DNA of 64,000 nucleotides from Apostichopus japonicus (taxonomy: Eukaryota; Echinodermata; Holothuroidea; Aspidochirotida; Stichopodidae), in contig NC_092568.1 of assembly GCF_037975245.1 (NCBI RefSeq), positions 31,404,501-31,468,500 of the forward strand, in the 5' to 3' direction. This document shows positions 9,101 to 56,330 of this stretch, in pieces (positions within the stretch are counted from its first letter, which is position 1; the number at the start of each line of letters is the position of its first letter). Both the position numbers and the translations under genes were made by a program. Under the pieces are notes generated by a model. The model searched no databases. It was not told the DNA's origin and saw nothing but the letters and a program-made list of their open reading frames with translations.

Positions 9101-12100
9101 CTGAATTTGAACTAATGAACCAGGAGACTATTTATTCTTGTTTCATCCCTTACACTGTCACTGCCATTATCCACTTGGCCATAGCACTCCACTTGGCCAT
9201 ATCCACTTGGCCATAGCACTGGTAACTTTGTGTAAACCTTGACAGAAAAAGCCTTGATGCCTTCCGGTGATGACAATCATATAACTTTACTTTTAATATG
9301 TCACTAAATAAACCAAGGCTATAAAAATTATCTATGCACAGTTTTCTTTTTGCTTGAACTTTCAATGATTACCCTTACTCTGGTACTATTTGATTATTAA
9401 TATTAACTGCTGTAGTAATAGCATGCCAATGATGGTCATTAATCAACTAGGCTCTCTTCTGAAGTGCCATATCAGCTGAATTTCCCAGTCCTTCCCAGTA
9501 CTCAAATTTAGATCGTACAATCTTCTGCTTGACTGTAATTGTTATATTAGGCAATTTCTTCTTGCTTGCAATGAGATTATGACATAGTATTACTAATACG
9601 TTGTGGAGTGTAAGCTCAGTGGTTAACACTGGTGCCTTTCAATCATAAGGTCCCCGGTTCGAGTCACTCCCAGATTAATGTATGTCGTCCAGTTACAGAG
9701 TTGTTGACAATTAACAATTCATAATCATGGACGTTAAATATGAATGTGAGAGACTGACTTCGGTCAGCTTGCAGCTTTGATAAGCCAATTAGGCTTCTTC
9801 GCGAGTTCCTGCTTGCAGGAGGATCTAATATACATACATACATACAATACCCAATGGCTAGACCCTGTGCCATAATTTACAGTTTGATCTGCAATAAATG
9901 TATTTTAGGCCTACGGTACCTGTAACATTTGATTGTAAAAGAACAAAGTATCTCAAGGTAAACATAATGAAATTGTGTTTTACTTCAGAATGGTGGCTTC
10001 AAAAAAAAAAGTGGGTGAGTTCCTGGAAGTGGGTCAGGGAGGGCGCAGTGGTCAAAATTTTACCAAGTTTGGCAAGTTCTGTAGATAGGGAAAGTGGACG
10101 ATTTATGAACAATAAGTTAAGAGAGCAGATAAGTAATATCCATGAATCTTACAACAAAAAAATAATTAATTTGTGTGTCCAATTACAGGGAAAAATAAAT
10201 ATCTAATAAAACTTACTGCTGTTTTACTGTACTTGCAGTAGACAGTAAAATACTGCAGTGAAACATTCAAATCAATAAAACACTTGTCAAATTACCTCAA
10301 AGCCAAATACTAGCTGAACTGTTGCTCCTTTGGTGAGGGTACTGTGGTATGCAAAGTTCACCCAAAGGGAATCCAACGTGCCCAAGAATAAGAGTAAAGC
10401 TGTTAAGATTAAAAGATAAATATTATTTTCATTCATTCCATAACAGATGCTAAGGTGATCTGAAGAATGATGCAAACGATTTGACCAAGAGCACCTTGTT
10501 GAATCTGGTGATATAGTGGTAGGGTTCAGGGAGCATGTACACTCTAACACAGCATTTGGAATTTAGCTGGCGATAGAAACCCAAAGTTTTAGAAATTTGA
10601 CATAGAGAATAATTGGTGTGTACTGTGTAAAATTTCTAATTATTCATTAACAAAATGAAAGGATTGCTTGTAAAGAAATACTTTACAAATGTGACTCGAA
10701 TGAAGGGGCTTCTTAATCTACTATTTTACCACCAAATATCCCAGTGTCATACTCTCAGCTTAAATGGACTAACTGAACCTATTAATATACTGGTCTTTGT
10801 TTTCTTCTCTATCTTTAGAGAGAGACGAGAGAGAGGAACAAACAAAAGCACAAAAATTCATGTATGGAATGACAATTATTTTTTCTAAATTATGAGAAAT
10901 TTTATTTGCATACTACATGGTTTGTGGGATGATCCATATATTAATCAGGAATCTGGGCAAGACAAAGAAATTTTCTACTGTAGCTTTGGTTACCTACTAT
11001 ACTGTATAGCTTAAATTTATTAGATAGGACATTATATTTGCAAACGACCAATAAGAGTTTTAATTATAGTAGGAAATTTTCACCCCTGCTTTCCCTTCTC
11101 CAATGAAAACTTGGAAAGAAGCTGAAAGGCAATTTATATAATTCCAACCATTGCAATTTTTAACTGTATAAACTATAAGGAAGTCCTCCCAAGAAATACT
11201 TTTACTATAAATTCACGCAAACACAGTAAAGTCAAGCAATCACATTGATGGTCAGAGTAACTTACTCTGAAAGGACGAAGAAATATATAAGCTACCCTCA
11301 TAAACCTGTCAATTTAACCATTGGGGAGTCATGGCACAGCCTTTACGGTTGTTCCCTGATCAATGTATTCATAGCTCATGACTCTACAGTATGGACCTTT
11401 TGACAAGCTAGCAATCTTAATAGGTTTGAAGGACTTACTGAGAACTCTTAGATGGAAGAGGACACTAATAACAGGACTTCTTTCCATCTGAATGAAAAAG
11501 AAGGAAATGAGATATTTATTCTTAATTTAAGCATTACCAAATCTGTTTCCTGAACAATGTTGTATTTCCTGTATAACAGATCCTAGATAAGGCATTCCAA
11601 TAAAAATAACACTACATCCTGTTTAGAAAGACATGATGTCCGATTTTGACGTGTAAAACATCTTGTAATGTATCTCTGGCTTAGCCTAACAGCAGATGGA
11701 CAGCCCTATCCATACAGTGTAGGTATACTAAGCGGATACAAATTAATTGAATGAAACAGCTACACAGGACCACCAAAAGCATATTAGATTCCACAGATAC
11801 AGAATAGGGTTCCATGTAACAGAAAACAACATACACTTTTGTTTCATTACACTAATTTCTTCTTTTATTTTTTATTTTTATATAAATTTATACCCGTTAA
11901 TTAAAATGCACTTACATAGTCCACTCTATCTTCAGCTAACCAATGGAAACATTTTAGAAAAAGCAAAAGAGTGAACATGGCCACAAATTTGGGGCTGAAG
12001 TCATCTCTGAAGACTGTGAAAGCAAGACAGGTCTCTGTGACGGCATACCATGACCTCTCTATAAGATGCTGGGGGCAACAAAAAAAAAGGGAAAATCTAT

Positions 12101-17195: not shown

Positions 17196-17465
17196 GAGAC
17201 GTTATGTGTGTGTGCCTGTATAATCAGTAATGTAATGATATGTTAGAACGACTTCGGCATTATAAAAGTCGTTGGCTGTAAATTAGGCCTATGTATTTCC
17301 ATATCTCTCTATATCATGTATTCTCACGTTTCTGTATTCTTCATTGATATCTTCTCTCTTTGTTTTACTCGTACCGCAGTTTATTTATTTTTGTAATTTG
17401 GTCACTATACAGTTTGATAACACCGCGGCCTTATGGCAAGCCGTTTTACTTTTTATTCAATATTT

Positions 17466-17875
17466 AATGATATCTTCAATTATTTGATGATATCATTAAA
17501 TCAATTGTTGATATCATTAAATCAATTGTTGATATCATTAAATCAATTGTTGATATCAAGAATTCGAATTGATGATATCAATAATCAATTAATGATATCA
17601 TTAATTCAATTCATTTCTTGATATCAATAATTCATTTAATGATATCATTATAAATGAATTAGTGATATCAAGAAATGATTTAAAGATATATTTAAATGTA
17701 TTTGTGATATGTACATATCACTAATTCGAATTAGTGATATGTACATATCAATAATTCGAATTAGTGATATCATCAAATATGACGTCATATTTACTGATGT
17801 CATTAATTCGCTTTAATGATATGTACATATCACTAATTCGAATTAGTGATATCATCAAATATGACGTCATATTCA
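17466..17875. repeat. Palindrome-dense AT-rich array (GATATC, GATATGTACATATC, TTCGAA, GACGTC)
   Basis: About twelve GATATC sites occur in roughly 400 bp, mostly 20-25 bp apart and linked by ATTAAATCAATTG or AATTCGAATT spacers. In the distal half, the 18-mer GTGATATGTACATATCAC and close variants occur three times, alternating with CTAATTCGAATTAG, and ATGACGTCAT occurs twice. Nearly every segment is its own reverse complement. Confidence 0.9.
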
Positions 17876-21609: not shown

Positions 21610-21787
21610 ATCGCTTCTCGGCCTTTTGGCTAAGATCATGTGTAGTATCTGTTCTCTTCGGGAATGGTGATGCACACCTGACGACTCACACAGTCACAGT
21701 CCCGATGCAAGGGGACTGGGGCTGAGAGCGGATCAGTCGTTTGGTAGTTTGGTTTTCGTGCCCAGGTTCTTTCCTGGGTGACTTTTT
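21610..21787 (+). ncRNA. U2-snRNA-headed RNA unit, copy 1
   Basis: The first 45 nt (ATCGCTTCTCGGCCTTTTGG, then CTAAGATCATGTGTAGTATC and TGTTC) equal the 5' end of metazoan U2 snRNA except for one A-to-T change. Stem-loop I and the branch-point recognition GTAGTA are intact. From about 21655 the sequence is no longer U2: the Sm site and stem-loops III/IV are missing. Instead there is TTCTC-TTC-GGGAA, a stem CAGTCCC/GGGACTG, a long-range ACGACT/AGTCGT pairing, and a terminal hairpin CCCAGG-TTCTTT-CCTGGG followed by a T run. It is either an snRNA-headed SINE or a U2-derived ncRNA. Confidence 0.75.
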
Positions 21788-21797
21788 CTTAAAAAGT

Positions 21798-21975
21798 ATC
21801 GCTTCTCGGCCTTTTGGCTAAGATCATGTGTAGTATCTGTTCCCTTTCGAGGGGAATGGTGATGCACACCTGACGATGATCACACAGTCACTGTCCCGAT
21901 GCAAGGGGACTGGGGTTGAGAGCGGAGCAGTCGTTTGGTATTTCGGTTGTCGTGCCCAGGTTCTTTCCTGGGCCA
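21798..21975 (+). ncRNA. U2-snRNA-headed RNA unit, copy 2
   Basis: A tandem copy starts 188 bp after copy 1. The first 45 nt are identical to copy 1, including the shared U2 mismatch. The 3' domain differs at scattered positions, but hairpins persist: TTCCC pairs with GGGAA where copy 1 has a TTCTC/GGGAA pairing with a G-U, and CCCAGG-TTCTTT-CCTGGG is unchanged. It ends in ACTTTTCTTAAAAA like copy 1. Confidence 0.75.
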
Positions 21976-21984
21976 CTTTTCTTA

Positions 21985-23725
21985 AAAATAAAAAACTATT
22001 TCAAATATGGTAGGATACAAAGTCAACACAAGTTAACCAACAATTAATTGACTGTGATCGGAGAAAACTATGTTACGAACATGTGAAAGCAGTTTCAATG
22101 CTCCATTGTGAATATTGTCTCGAAAAACTTTACAAATAATGCATTTTATTTGTAACAAAACGTCTAAAAAATCCAACTGTTTGTTGTCTACCATACTGCC
22201 CGGATGTGTTTCCCACGCCCCCTTTCGGTGAAGTCCCTTCGAATTATTTGATTGGCAGCTTTGAGGCACCGCCACTTCCGAACTGAGTACAGCGCGCGAA
22301 CGGTCAAACCACGAGTACATAAACACGCCTTGATAATGAGCAAGTCTGCTGTTCTACGTACGTACGTACACACGGCATCATCATCAGTTCATCACCATTT
22401 TGAAGCGAGAGCAGTTCTGTCGTGTTACAACATATTTCAAAATCTATTCATCTAAGTTTTGGATTCGTGGGATGAGAACCCGTACCAAGGATTTGGTTAC
22501 CTAGCACTTTATCAAGAACAGTTATTGGCTTCATATCTCATATCCGTCGTTTTTGTTCACGTTTGGAAACACATGGATAGCTTATGAACGTTGGGAACTT
22601 ATTTTGAAGAAGAGAGAAACCATCAGACAGGGATTTATGAACTAGCCTACACCAGAATATATTTACCAACGGATTATCATCAGTAGGTAAGTTACCCCAG
22701 ACTATATCTCTTTCTCTCTCCGTGTGTAGGGTTGAACTAGTCAACTTCTGTAGGCTAGTTATTAAAACTTACAATTTAAAAAAAAAATCGTATTACGCTC
22801 AGGGTATAACACTAACAGTAAAAGCTCCTGCAGATGTACTTGTATTAGGAATTCGTACCACGTCAGGTTTAGGGCCTAGGTCCATACGTTAGGCATACAC
22901 ATTAACAGTTCGCAAAAAGGCCCAGTCTTAATTCTACGCAGGTATCCATACATTGGTGCCAAGACAATTTTGTATTGAACCTTGAGTATTTACTTAGAGC
23001 GAATAACTAGTAGCCTATATAGGCCTAGTGTCATTATTTTCAATTGGCCTATTATTATTATTTTCAATTGCAAGCAATACAATATATGCATTATATTGCT
23101 TGCAATGTACAGGTATTCTGTATATGTTGTAAAGGCCCATGGGCCTAGTAATAGATTTAAAAGCTTATATTAACAACTATAAAATGTGGTATAAGTTTAG
23201 AAGCATAGGTAGAAAAATACATTTAGTGAAGAGGTAGACCTAGTAATGGAGTTGAATCTAGCCATTTTCGACAGTTGTCCCAGTTGTTTTGTTAAATCCA
23301 TCACTGTATATGCGCAATGCCATTTGGTAATAATGAAATAATAACATATTCTGAGACCTAGCTCATTCATAACTGTATGGTATGCTTTTTTCATTTTGCA
23401 TGAAGGATGACTGGGCCATACATTGTATGGAGCAGATATATCATTACCTAGAATGGAATTAATTATTATCTGGTGTAAATAGATTAACTTATCAAATTTG
23501 GATGATGATGATGTACCAGTAACTTGCATTAACATCTCAAAGAAGATTAGTTAAAATAAAAGAAGAGTTAATACATATGAGGTTCAACTGGCATTCATAA
23601 GAGAGGTGATGCATATTGCGGTTGTTTTCTTTATAATCGCCTGAGGCAACTCCTCCATAGAAAAAGCAATTGATTGGGATTGTTAAAGGATTCCATTATT
23701 AAAGAAAATGATATCTGATCATTAT
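21985..23725. other. Intergenic, no recognised gene
   Basis: Mixed-composition unique DNA; the 22190-22340 stretch has more CpG than its surroundings. No coding exon recognised. Confidence 0.5.
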
Positions 23726-37119: not shown

Positions 37120-37890
37120 ATGGGTACAAGTAGAATTACCCTTGAGTACAAGTAGACTTCTACTTGAGTACAGGTAGACTTGTACTTGAGTGCAAGTAGA
37201 CTTCTACTTGAGTACAAGTAGACTTCTACTTGAGTGCAAGTAGACTTCTACTTGAGTACAAGTAGACTTCTACTTGAGTTCAAGTAGAATTACCCTTGAG
37301 TTCAAGAAGACTTCTACTTGAGTACAAGTAGACTTCTACTTGAGTACAAGTAGACTTCTACTTGAGTGCAAGTAGACTTTTACTTGAGTACAAGTAGACT
37401 TCTACTTGAGTACAAGTAGAATTACCCTTGAGTACAAGAAGACTTCTACTTGAGTACAAGTAGACTTCTACTTGAGTACAAGTAGAATTACCCTTGAGTA
37501 CAAGAAGACTTCTACTTGAGTGCAAGTAGACTTCTACTTGAGTGCAAGTAGACTTCTACTTGAGTGCAAGTAGACTTCTACTTGAGTACAAGTAGACTTC
37601 TACTTGAGTACATGTAGAATTACCCTTGAGTACAAGAAGACTTCTACTTGAGTACAAGTAGACTCCTACTTGAGTACAAGTAGACTTCTACTTGAGTACA
37701 AGTAGAATTACCCTTGAGTACAAGAAGACTTCTACTTGAGTACAAGTAGACTTCTACTTGAGTGCAAGTAGACTTCTATTTGAGTAAAAGTAGACTTCCG
37801 CTTGCATGAGTACAAGTAGACTCCCCTTGAGTACAATAAGACTTCCCTTAGTGTACAAGTAGAATTCACCTTGAGTGCAGGTAGACTTAA
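37120..37890. repeat. 22-bp hairpin minisatellite
   Basis: About 34 copies of a 22-bp unit with core CTACTTGAGTACAAGTAG, in which CTACTTG and CAAGTAG are inverted around AGTA. A variant unit (AATTACCCTTGAGTACAAGA) recurs at irregular multiples, at about 37131, 37290, 37420, 37485, 37617 and 37705. The array decays after about 37795. Confidence 0.95.
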
Positions 37891-41800: not shown

Positions 41801-43379
41801 AGTTCACTCTGGCTTGACAACTGATCTATACAGCCGCCCACTATTATATTTTACATGATATTTCAATAGCTGCTCAAGATTATGCATTTGCAAATTGGAA
41901 AATGTCAATTTTTTGTCTTGAAAATTATTAAAACTATTGAAATTTGCCTAGATGTCCTCTTTAGATTTCAATTTTTATTATTGTTATTATTACTACTACA
42001 GTATTATTATAAAGAATGTTTCTGAAATATTGAATATATGACTAGATAACTGGTGCCACAAAGTGGTTTTTATAAAGGAGCCATCTCAACCAGCACTTAT
42101 ATATATTTTTATGTATATTTTGTTAACAAGAAACTCCCATCAATCTCTCCATAAAAAATTAATTTTGTATTTATTAAATCCTGTTTATCATGTCGATGTC
42201 ATTCGACACGTACGATTATGTTTCCTCAGTCACTCAGATTCAGTCCATTCCAAAGAAGAGAAGAAGAATAAATAAACAGCCCTAATGAACTGTTAAATGA
42301 ACGTCAATGGCTGCGGGGATAATTAAAAGCTTGTTTGGAAGGAATCTATTAAGTACGCTACTTTCTATAGAAATCCTCTGATTGATGGTACAGTAAGATC
42401 GATTGTTGCTAAAACTCATGATTCATTCATTTGCTCTAATTATTGTCAATGTGCATGTTATTAGCGGGAAGGATAACTTTTGTTCCACAAAGTGATGAGG
42501 TTGGTCAAAAAATTACCAAGCCTTCTAAATGGAAAAAAAAATTAGAAAAAAAAAAAATTAGAGAAACATCAACAAATTTCTATCACTGATTCACTATATT
42601 CTTGTTATTAGTTTTTGCTTTGATGGATCTGTAGGTGTATTGTTAACTTGTTGCCGTAGTTGTGCATTAACGCAACGGGTTATAAATAGAAGGCGAGTGT
42701 ATGAATGAATAAGGTGGAATCGCTATAATCATAATGGACTATTAGAGGTGATTGATTAGACAGTTTATACGATATTGGTATGATTAATGTTGACATGATG
42801 GTAAGCATGCCTTCAGAGTCAAAAGCATGATGGTTGTTGTACATGTCGTTATTTGCTTTTCCTGAATTTATTTGTTCCTTGAAGCATTGCAGGTTCAGTT
42901 TATTAATATGTGATCTTTGCAGTGGACAAATAGCAATTTTGCAGGTACAGGACATCTGCCTTGAGTTTATGTTGCTAAGGGACAACAAGTCACTATAGTT
43001 ACCCAAAGATGCTAGATATGCTAAAGTGGTCATAGTTCTTTGAAACATAATATTTGAGAATCCCTTTGGGCTGTTTTTAGAATGTTTTCTCCATGATGTT
43101 CATAATGCTTGGAGTTTATTGTAGCATTCCAATTTTGGTAATATTTGAACAAACGGTCGTTCTATAAATTTGCAAGGGAACCTTTGTATATTTGGCAGTG
43201 TAAATTACATTAAAAAACAAGTAATTTAGGCAGATCCAAATATTTTTTATAAGCAAATTGTTATTATGAGTAGCTATCCCATGGATACTTTTCTAAAATA
43301 GTATTTGTGCCCAGGATTTGGAATTTCAAGTTCGGTTGGATATTTGCTGGATTCATCCAAAAATTCAAAAATCCAAAAA
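38888..43379. other. AT-rich stretch with candidate conserved-element-like segments
   Basis: No coding exon recognised. Segments 39060-39430 and 42100-42480 are of higher complexity and hold homeodomain-type TTAATTAC and PBX/HOX-like TGATTGATGG motifs. C-rich homopolymer at 40606-40618. Confidence 0.4.
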
Positions 43380-43553
43380 TAAGGTCCCCGGTTCGAGTCA
43401 CTCCCAGATTAATGTATGTCTTCCAGTTACAGAGTTGTTGACAATTAACAATTCATAATCATGGACGTTAAATATGAATGTAAGAGACTGACTTCGGTCA
43501 GCTTGCGGCTTTGATAAGCCAATGATGAGGATCTAATATACATACATACATAC
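43380..43553 (+). mobile_element. SINE family A, head-truncated copy with internal deletion
   Basis: It begins within the tRNA-like region (AAGGTCCCCGGTTCGAGTCA) and follows the copy at 9604 closely, but lacks the segment with GCTTCTTCGCGAGTTCC before the (CATA)n tail. The A box is missing, so it could not be transcribed on its own. Confidence 0.87.
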
Positions 43554-43732
43554 ATTCTGGCAGTCATTCCTGCCAGATTTACTGTTGGAGTTTGGAAATT
43601 AACTAATCCAACAATTTCTTTAGGGTAGAGAGTGGTAGGTGATGGGAGAAGGGTGGGGGGGGGGGTGGTTGTTCTTGGTGGTTGTGTGAATGAAAAAGTC
43701 CATATATGTAATTATGTATGTGCATGTATGAA

Positions 43733-43945
43733 TTTAGATCCTGGATCCAGGAACTTGCGAAGAAGCCTCTTTGGCTTAGCCACAAGCCAACCGAAGTCAG
43801 TCTCTTAGATTCATATTTAACGTCCATGATTATGATTTGTCAACAACTCTGTAACTGGATGACATACATTAATCTTGGAGTGACTCGAACCGGGGACATT
43901 ACGATTGGAAGGCAGCGGCATTATACCACTGAGCTAACACTCCAA
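43733..43945 (-). mobile_element. SINE family A copy, reverse orientation
   Basis: On the minus strand the head GGAGTGTTAGCTCAGTGG and B box GGTTCGAGTCACTCC are followed by the family body up to CTGGATCCAGGATCTA. With the copy at 43380 it forms two oppositely oriented copies about 180 bp apart, so an RNA through the region could fold into a long hairpin. Confidence 0.87.
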
Positions 43946-49103: not shown

Positions 49104-49285
49104 AATGAATGAATGAGTGAATGAATGAGTGAATGAATGAATTAATAAACGAACGAACGAACGAACTAATGAGTGAGTGAAATGATTGAATGAATGAATG
49201 AATGAGTTTATGGGTGAATTAATATATGAGTGAATGAATGAATAAGTAAATGCGTTGAGTGAATGAATGAATGAATGAATGAATT
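49104..49285. repeat. (GAAT)n / (GAAC)n microsatellite
   Basis: Degenerate GAAT repeat, with a CGAA block near 49150-49165. It flanks the SINE at 49291, and GAATGAATGAATGAA resumes at about 49564. Confidence 0.92.
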
Positions 49286-49290
49286 AAATG

Positions 49291-49543
49291 TATGTATGTA
49301 TTGTTTGTATTTTAGATCCTCCTGCAAGCAGGAACTCGCGAAGATGCCTCATTGGATTATCTAAGCTGCAAGCTGACCAAAGTCAGTCTCTTAGATTCAT
49401 ATTTAATGTCCATGATGATGAATTGTCAATTGTCAACAACTCTGTAACTGCATGGACGACATACATTAATCTTGGAGTGACTCGAACTGGGGACCTTGTA
49501 ATGATTGGAAGGCACCGGCGTTAACAACTGAGCTAACACTCCT
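49291..49543 (-). mobile_element. SINE family A copy, reverse orientation, inside a GAAT microsatellite
   Basis: Minus-strand head GGAGTGTTAGCTCAGTTG, B box AGTTCGAGTCACTCC, then the family body to the lower edge CTGCTTGCAGGAGGATCTAA with a CATA-type tail. It interrupts a GAAT array present on both sides. Confidence 0.87.
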
Positions 49544-54839: not shown

Positions 54840-56330
54840 TGTGTTAGTATGTGGTACTGTATTAGTGTATGTGATACTGTGTACTGTATTTGATACTGTA
54901 GTATGCTGTATACTGTAGTATGTGACACGGTATACTGTATGTGATACTGTGTACTATATACTGTATGTGATACTGTATTACTGTATGTGATACTGTATTA
55001 CTGTATGTGATACTGTATTACTGTATGTGATACTGTGTACTGTATTGATACTGTAGTATGCTGTATACTGTAGTATGTGACACGGTATACTGTATGTGAT
55101 ACTGTGTACTATATACTGTATGTGATACTGTATTACTGTATGTGATACTGTATTACTGTATGTGATACTGTACTACTGTATGTGATACTGTATTACTGTA
55201 TGTGATACTGTGTACTGTATTGATACTGTAGTATGCTTTATACTGTAGTATGTGACACGGTATACTGTATGTGATACTGTGTACTACTATACTGTATGAG
55301 ATACTGTAAATTACTGTATGTGATACTGTATTACTGTATGTGATACTGTATTACTGTATGTGATACTGTATTACTGTATGTGATACTGTATTACTGTATG
55401 TGATACTGTATTACTGTATGTGATACTGTATTACTGTATGTGATACTGTATTACTGTATGTGATACTGTATTACTGTATGTGATACTGTATTACTGTATG
55501 CGATACTGTACTTACTGTATGTGATACTGTATTACTGTATGAGATACTGTAAATTACTGTATGTGATACTGTATTACTGTATGTGATACTGTATTACTGT
55601 ATGTGATACTGTATTACTGTATGTGATACTGTATTACTGTATGTGATACTTGTATTACTGTATGTGATACTGTATTACTGTATGTGATAATGTATTACTG
55701 TATGTGATACTGTATTACTGTATGTGATACTGTATTACTGTATGTGATACTGTATTACTGTATGTGATACTGTGTACTGTATTGATACTGTATTACTGTA
55801 TGTGATACTGTATTACTGTATGTGATACTGCATTACTGTATGTGATACTGTATTACTGTATGTGATACTGTATTACTGTATGTGATACTGTATTACTGTA
55901 TGTGATACTGTATTACTGTATGTGATACTGTATTACTGTATGTGATACTGTATTACTGTATGTGATACTGTATTACTGTATGTGATACTGTATTACTGTA
56001 TGTGATACTGTATTACTGTATGTGATACTGTATTACTGTATGTGATGCTGTATTACTGTATGTGATGCTGTATTACTGTATGTGATACTGTATTACTGTA
56101 TGTGATACTGTATTACTGTATGTGATACTGTATTACTGTATGTGATACTGTATTACTGTATGTGATACTGTATTACTGTATGTGATATTGTGTACCGTAT
56201 ACTGTATGCGAAACTACTATATATACTGTAATATTCTGTATACTGTAGTATGCTGTGTACTGTACAGTAGGTATGTGATATGTAATACTGTACAGTAAGT
56301 ATACTATATAGGATGAGATACTGTAAAATG
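54840..56330. repeat. 20-bp minisatellite (TACTGTATGTGATACTGTAT) with higher-order structure
   Basis: About 65-70 copies of a 20-bp unit occupy about 1.4 kb. In the left third a longer block containing TGTGACACGGTATACTGTAT recurs at about 54921, 55076 and 55251, spacings 155 and 175 bp, differing by one unit. The central 55310-56190 part is nearly homogeneous, and the right edge decays into TACTGTA-rich sequence. Confidence 0.96.

Follow-up and report, generated by a model that had tools for sequence, protein, structure and literature searches.

A SINE with a U2 snRNA head in Apostichopus japonicus and its insertion in the U2 genes of its host

The two units of the window and their U2 head

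In the 64,000-nucleotide stretch of DNA analysed here (the window), two neighboring units start like U2 snRNA and then continue into sequence of another kind, which raises the question of what these units are and how they came by the head of an snRNA. A search of the window with the Rfam U2 model (RF00004, gathering score 46), which had been suggested in the first-pass annotation, placed both units above the gathering score in the head region only, namely 21610-21690 with 55.7 bits and 21798-21874 with 52.6 bits. The alignment covered model positions 1 to about 46 plus a few far-end bases, while the remainder of the model was skipped. The view of both units as a U2 head joined to a non-U2 3' domain was borne out, as were the intact branch-point recognition GTAGTA and the missing stem III/IV and Sm site. 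Judged by this alignment, the Sm site and 3' stem-loops of a U2 snRNA gene are lacking in the units.

One detail of the head depends on the reference chosen. The 44 of 45 matching positions with a single A-to-T change, as first annotated, stand against U2 in general but not against the U2 of the host itself. T30 was present in 80 of 80 U2 heads from 20 overlapping loci of the host U2 array (L049-L068, with genes counted more than once), and since the host U2 genes carry T30, the head of the element agrees with host U2 at all 45 positions. Nucleotides 1-45 of the reference copy were 100% identical to the U2 heads of the array.

For the non-U2 body and tail of unit 1, no further Rfam match was obtained up to E = 1, and a Pfam search with four ORFs of the window revealed no match. 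The hairpin with the CCCAGG and CCTGGG arms was recovered in both units, and the T's annotated as a run at the end are present as well, though as one arm of a possible terminal hairpin (Table 1). Both units were predicted to fold more stably than shuffled sequences (z of -2.99 for unit 1 and -2.56 for unit 2), which is suggestive only. The units abut, forming a tandem repeat (21610-21988) whose copies are about 91% alike according to TRF and 90.6% according to blastn. Within the window, the non-U2 domain was found by blastn at these two places only; in the genome it is widespread.

Other repeats were also observed in the window. These comprise satellite-like tandem repeats at 351-1033 (42 bp), 2033-2610 (61/262), 37124-37888 (22), and 54847-56191 (20), tandem repeats of 21, 30, and 82 bp at 17456-17873 that match themselves in inverted orientation too, and a repeat at 9604-9846, 43372-43944, and 49285-49542 with several copies of about 130-260 bp, which are 79-98% alike and occur in both orientations.

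Table 1. Positions of the window units and their parts, of SINE copies resident in U2 genes, and of related loci
Feature	Location	Strand	Remarks
SINE unit 1	21610..21797	+	full length, 188 bp; 97% to young reference copy L007
SINE unit 2	21798..21988	+	head full-length, 3' end worn; 92% to young reference
Unit 1 head	21610..21654	+	host U2 nt 1-45, 45/45 including T30
Unit 2 head	21798..21842	+	host U2 nt 1-45, 45/45
Unit 1 non-U2 body and tail	21655..21797	+	
Hairpin CCCAGG-TTCTTT-CCTGGG, unit 1	21761..21778	+	
Hairpin CCCAGG-TTCTTT-CCTGGG, unit 2	21955-21972	+	
Possible 3'-terminal hairpin ACTTTTT-CTT-AAAAAGT, unit 1	21781..21797	+	weak, -1.9 kcal/mol
U2-resident SINE	C16:31132294		U2 1-45 + body + U2 38 on
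U2-resident SINE	C16:31133737		U2 1-45 + body + U2 38 on
U2-resident SINE	C16:31059277		U2 1-45 + body + U2 38 on, with a changed head
U2-resident SINE	C16:31134535		U2 1-53 + SINE 67-190
U2-resident SINE	C16:31006752		SINE 120-190 after 15-bp duplicate of U2 38-52, behind C-like tail
U2-resident SINE	C16:31021614		U2 1-40 + SINE 90-190 + second SINE from nt 38
Units identical to C16:31132294	L028_1, L030_1, L031_1, L032_1, L033_1, L034_1, L036_1, L038_1		
Inverted pairs of the TTTTCGGG..GCAC variant	C2:13099709/13102872, C3:5845500/5847481, C3:25407318/25410317, C7:5899545/5902098, C16:10514686/10517719		

A dispersed SINE family and its target sites

The genome of the window itself (671.6 Mb, 35 contigs) was searched with unit 1, resulting in at least 61 matches (40 scored of 2506 candidates), of which most full-length ones showed 97-98% identity. 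A pattern for the head-body junction with four free places matched 185 times (99 on the plus and 86 on the minus strand; reversed control 0), unit 1 of the window being among these matches and the U2-resident copy C16:31132294 expected to be. A second pattern, directed at the tail and omitting the common young form, matched 362 times (control 0), including some young copies that share the tail base, e.g., L039. Fourteen of these 362 matches were fetched and all turned out to be SINE, 13 of them over 103-196 nt at 87-94% and the fourteenth over 48 nt only, in a fetched stretch of just 61 nt. The 3' end of the element reads ACTTTTTCTTAAAAAGT. Among 46 units chosen for a start within nt 1-5 and a 3' end that is reached, 38 begin exactly at U2 +1; ten are mutually identical, and eight more belong to a second identical form. 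Copies truncated at the 5' side with intact 3' ends exist as well (L009, L012, and L013, and also in the U2 array).

Many dispersed short copies, target-site duplications (TSDs), and 5'-truncated copies are general hallmarks of a SINE, and it is close to certain that the units belong to a dispersed SINE family of 190-194 bp with TSDs. This family comprises one very young form and another that is more diverged and presumably older. The snRNA-headed, SINEU-like SINE, one of the two candidates of the first-pass annotation, received strong support from the dispersed copies, their TSDs, the 5' truncations, and the young identical copies. An internal promoter, another general feature of SINEs, was not recognized: in a simple pattern test of the 46 units, strict A-box and B-box patterns gave no match, and a loose A-box-like stretch was seen in the U2 head. 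In addition, nt 191-645 of the U2 repeat, including the region in front of the gene, were found at none of 54 dispersed loci. Viral and prokaryote contigs did not contain the SINE domain, as expected. Among roughly 100 listed junction-pattern matches, on contigs C1 to C16, a variant with TTTTCGGG..GCAC was observed five times as a pair in inverted orientation with a spacing of about 2-3 kb (Table 1); a larger element that has inverted repeats may carry these pairs.

With regard to the target sites, the 40 loci fetched from the best unit 1 matches over-represent young copies. An exact TSD of at least 5 bp was detected in 23 of 30 solo near-full-length copies when small offsets were allowed, the longest measuring 24 bp (L007). 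The base directly 3' of the element was A in all 30, and the first four 3' bases (A30; T19 C8; C15 T10; T22) displayed the majority A-T-C-T, which equals U2 nt 38-41. The eight bases preceding the site revealed no strong preference at 24 exact-TSD loci, whose common A is partly a matter of construction, an exact match to the right flank having been required. In L034 and L036, the duplication begins one base later. In 14 diverged copies, the next base was A in 13 and the second place T or C in 8, with A[T/C] in 7 of the 14, so that the rule A[T/C][C/T]T is followed less well than in the young copies.

At some loci, head-to-tail units are parted by copies of one TSD, e.g., ACCTTTCCT, which occurs four times around the three units of L010. 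The 5' unit was closer to the young reference in L010, L014, L015, L028, and the window pair, and partly so in L011; this was not the case in L009, L012, L013, and L021. In the arrays of L010, L014, L015, and L028, the least diverged unit lies 5', a pattern that would arise if later copies were inserted at the old 5' target border again. Insertion of one SINE into the head of another was also found outside the U2 array. In L011, the head of a SINE is split between nt 37 and 38 by another copy, and L095 holds a SINE that lacks its first 37 nt and whose nt 38 directly follows a truncated copy.

For the window pair, no TSD was detected between the units and no clear one around them, the best string common to the flanks being 8 bases (ATAAAAAA) and lying 16 bases from the head. 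Unit 2 harbors the CCCTTTCGAGGGG junction, a mark of the more diverged form; the longer TTTCGAGGGG junction of this form was present in unit 2 and in 10 of the 14 diverged copies fetched. As the junction features of units 1 and 2 differ and are each found in different copy sets, the units look like separate insertions. The dimer is best explained as two off-target copies of the SINE, older than the youngest copies, with one of the two abutting the other at its 5' side.

Insertions in the host U2 gene array

The U2 genes of the host form a tandem array with a 645-bp repeat. Of the 40 matches scored out of 1053 candidates for a U2 query, 36 were on C16, many of them 645 bp apart, and four on C15, where the distance between a young SINE copy (L020, C15:6480064) and a separate U2 match (C15:6478809) was about 1.2 kb. 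Analysis of 20 C16 loci that had not been selected for a break site revealed seven distinct interrupted repeats, all of which resume at nt 38, or, with an insert ending in AGT, at an apparent nt 35. A pattern consisting of U2 from nt 38 with a non-U2 base four places before, which fixes the site by construction, detected 27 places, all of them at C16 30.999-31.163 Mb (control 0). Since breaks elsewhere in U2 would be missed by this pattern, at least 27 repeats are broken. Sorted by the 3' end of the insert, the 27 junctions belong to the SINE (6), tail A (7, three of them read and four assigned from four bases only), tail B (7), tail C (4), and tail D (3). In this region (L049-L089), a single nucleotide of a low-copy gene serves several element families as insertion site.

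The SINE is inserted in host U2 genes before nt 38 (Table 1). These copies are full length or start at nt 67, 90, or 120, and their apparent TSDs measure 8, about 15, 3, and 15 bp, respectively; as both starts and duplications differ, at least four SINE insertions took place at one U2 nucleotide. The full-length copies have U2 nt 1-45 in front of them, together with the upstream U2 repeat. That the element has also been inserted in the host's U2 array, at the very nucleotide used by LINEs, offers an explanation of where its head comes from.

Two of the neighboring families are LINEs with both reading frames open, namely LINE A (L069; ORF1 of 410 aa, ORF2 of 1157 aa) and LINE B (L070; ORF1 of 510 aa, ORF2 of 1162 aa). 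Each ORF1 revealed a zinc-knuckle match and each ORF2 matches to Exo_endo_phos, RVT_1, and zf-RVT, the zf-RVT match of LINE A lying just below the curated cut-off; the two ORF2 products are 36% identical. Based on these domains and the insertion site, both appear to be Tx1/Keno-like. For tails C and D, of which about 350 nt each are known, we infer that they are LINEs too from spacings of about 5.6 kb and the likeness of their ends to that of B.

Comparison of the SINE tail with LINEs A and B gave no long common stretch and alignment scores no better than those of shuffles, and no long common stretch was found with tails C and D. A barely stable terminal ACTT...AAGT stem is present in the SINE and in tails B, C, and D, and missing from tail A. 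All seven genome matches of the LINE B tail were within the U2 array. As LINE B was found in U2 only, in contrast to the mostly dispersed SINE, the latter could be moved by another LINE with a less strict choice of target. The tail pattern also served to seek a partner LINE with the SINE tail, and the 14 of 362 matches that were fetched were, as stated, SINE. A Tx1-like LINE was observed beside or around three young SINE copies on C17 (L005, L006, L007, L041-L046), one of which, in L006, breaks its RT frame. This LINE was rejected as a partner, for its 3' ends are unlike the SINE tail and a SINE query found nothing in it. Another LINE-like repeat on C17 shares a 14-base match with the SINE end, which was attributed to chance, the stretch being apparently RT-coding and different in a relative.

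Possible sources of the copies and comparison with known systems

The promoter that drives U2 genes lies upstream of them, so that neither the transcription nor the head of an snRNA-headed SINE is self-explanatory. Over 190 nt, no difference was found between the U2-resident copy C16:31132294 and eight of the 46 units (Table 1), or between C16:31133737 and one unit (L009_1); the two resident copies differ from each other at nt 46-50. Though identity alone gives no direction of copying, we infer that U2-resident copies were the sources of dispersed ones. Judging from these sequence comparisons, it is likely that the SINE uses a U2 site of the Keno/Utopia type, gains the U2 promoter there, and scatters copies from its U2-resident sources. 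The promoter would give rise to an RNA with its 5' end at U2 +1 and the order U2(1-45)-body-tail, and the enzyme of a LINE, most likely one of the Tx1-like LINEs that share these U2 genes, would copy this RNA by target-primed reverse transcription. Some new copies would be inserted in further U2 genes, where they could act as sources in turn; most would go off target to A[T/C][C/T]T-like sites and decay there, with a U2 head but no U2 promoter. For the truncated U2-resident form (U2 1-53 + SINE 67-190), no exact daughter was found elsewhere.

A more general reading of the same data can be put forward tentatively, namely that a promoterless SINE might acquire its promoter by precise insertion in an snRNA gene, its dispersed copies being off-target dead ends. 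Each U2 insertion, even a 5'-truncated one, could then rebuild a transcribed U2-headed source, and the U2 array would serve as a nursery of the SINE, shared with several U2-inserted LINEs. If true, this would explain both the origin of the snRNA heads of SINEs and their transcription. As one assembled genome holds U2-resident and dispersed copies with matching private variants together with U2-inserted LINEs, the idea is directly testable.

The alternative that fares best, though we regard it as unlikely, is an ordinary SINEU-like SINE, which captured its head once, long ago, by template switching and is moved by some other LINE, so that the copies in U2 genes would be a side effect of target preference and not the source. 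This would agree with the dispersal of most copies, with the tail of LINE B, which differs from that of the SINE and is found in U2 only, and with the truncated U2-resident copy that lacks an exact daughter. It is opposed by the private variants common to U2-resident and dispersed copies at 190 of 190 positions and by the end of the head at nt 45, which is consistent with 8 bp having been duplicated at the U2 site. Moreover, with neither the upstream U2 repeat (0 of 54 loci) nor a strict A-box or B-box match, the dispersed copies need some source that bears a promoter. Far less probable is a functional U2-derived RNA, e.g., the branch-point decoy or U2 competitor considered in the first-pass annotation, which found no support here: the intact GTAGTA and the fold more stable than shuffles would suit such a role, but the copies number in the hundreds and show TSDs, truncations, and decay, the Rfam alignment lacks an Sm site, and the window copies are diverged ones, all of which argues against it. 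U2 pseudogenes in decay, or a tandem duplication of local origin, to which the U2 head with its canonical start might point, are highly improbable, and the U2 pseudogene, already doubted in its ordinary form by the annotation, was rejected, since no U2 sequence, decayed or not, follows the head in the Rfam alignment, copies of this 3' domain with TSDs are found throughout the genome, and the junction features differ between the units and are seen in different copy sets.

The favored reading, in which a SINE is scattered from copies residing in U2 genes, can be set beside three known systems. SINEU elements, reportedly described by Kojima in 2015, are said to be crocodilian SINEs with U1 or U2 snRNA heads. 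They are moved by a LINE of the Tx1 group, and crocodilian genomes are far larger than that of the present host. Like them, the host SINE is short and non-autonomous, and its 5' head is derived from U2, starting from +1; unlike them, it has source-like copies at one fixed nucleotide within genuine U2 genes. As for a Tx1-group mover, Tx1-like LINEs share the U2 site of the SINE, with no long common tail. The host SINE would be a further version of SINEU, or would at least work in the manner of one. SINEU is listed as a class of SINEs in Repbase (PMC5753468), and Kojima's SINEU is treated as well in PMC7245038. Among the titles and abstracts shown in a literature search, no SINE inside U2 genes was described, which is no proof of absence.

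The second system is Keno, whose 3' flank, according to PMC4640811, is that of Utopia and starts from U2 nt 39. LINEs A and B resemble it as APE- and RT-encoding LINEs with zinc domains at a conserved site in U2 genes. Their flank starts from nt 38 instead of nt 39, a one-base ambiguity that can be due to a shared A38. For Utopia, the same paper describes interrupted U2 genes, several families side by side, and occasional tandem insertion (PMC4640811). The insertions in the present host agree with this in their U2 target, which is the same within one base, in the broken U2 genes, in the co-resident families, and in occasional tandem insertion. They differ in that Utopia encodes an RLE, whereas LINEs A and B match the APE-type endonuclease, and in that Utopia is itself a LINE, while the host SINE is a non-autonomous element.
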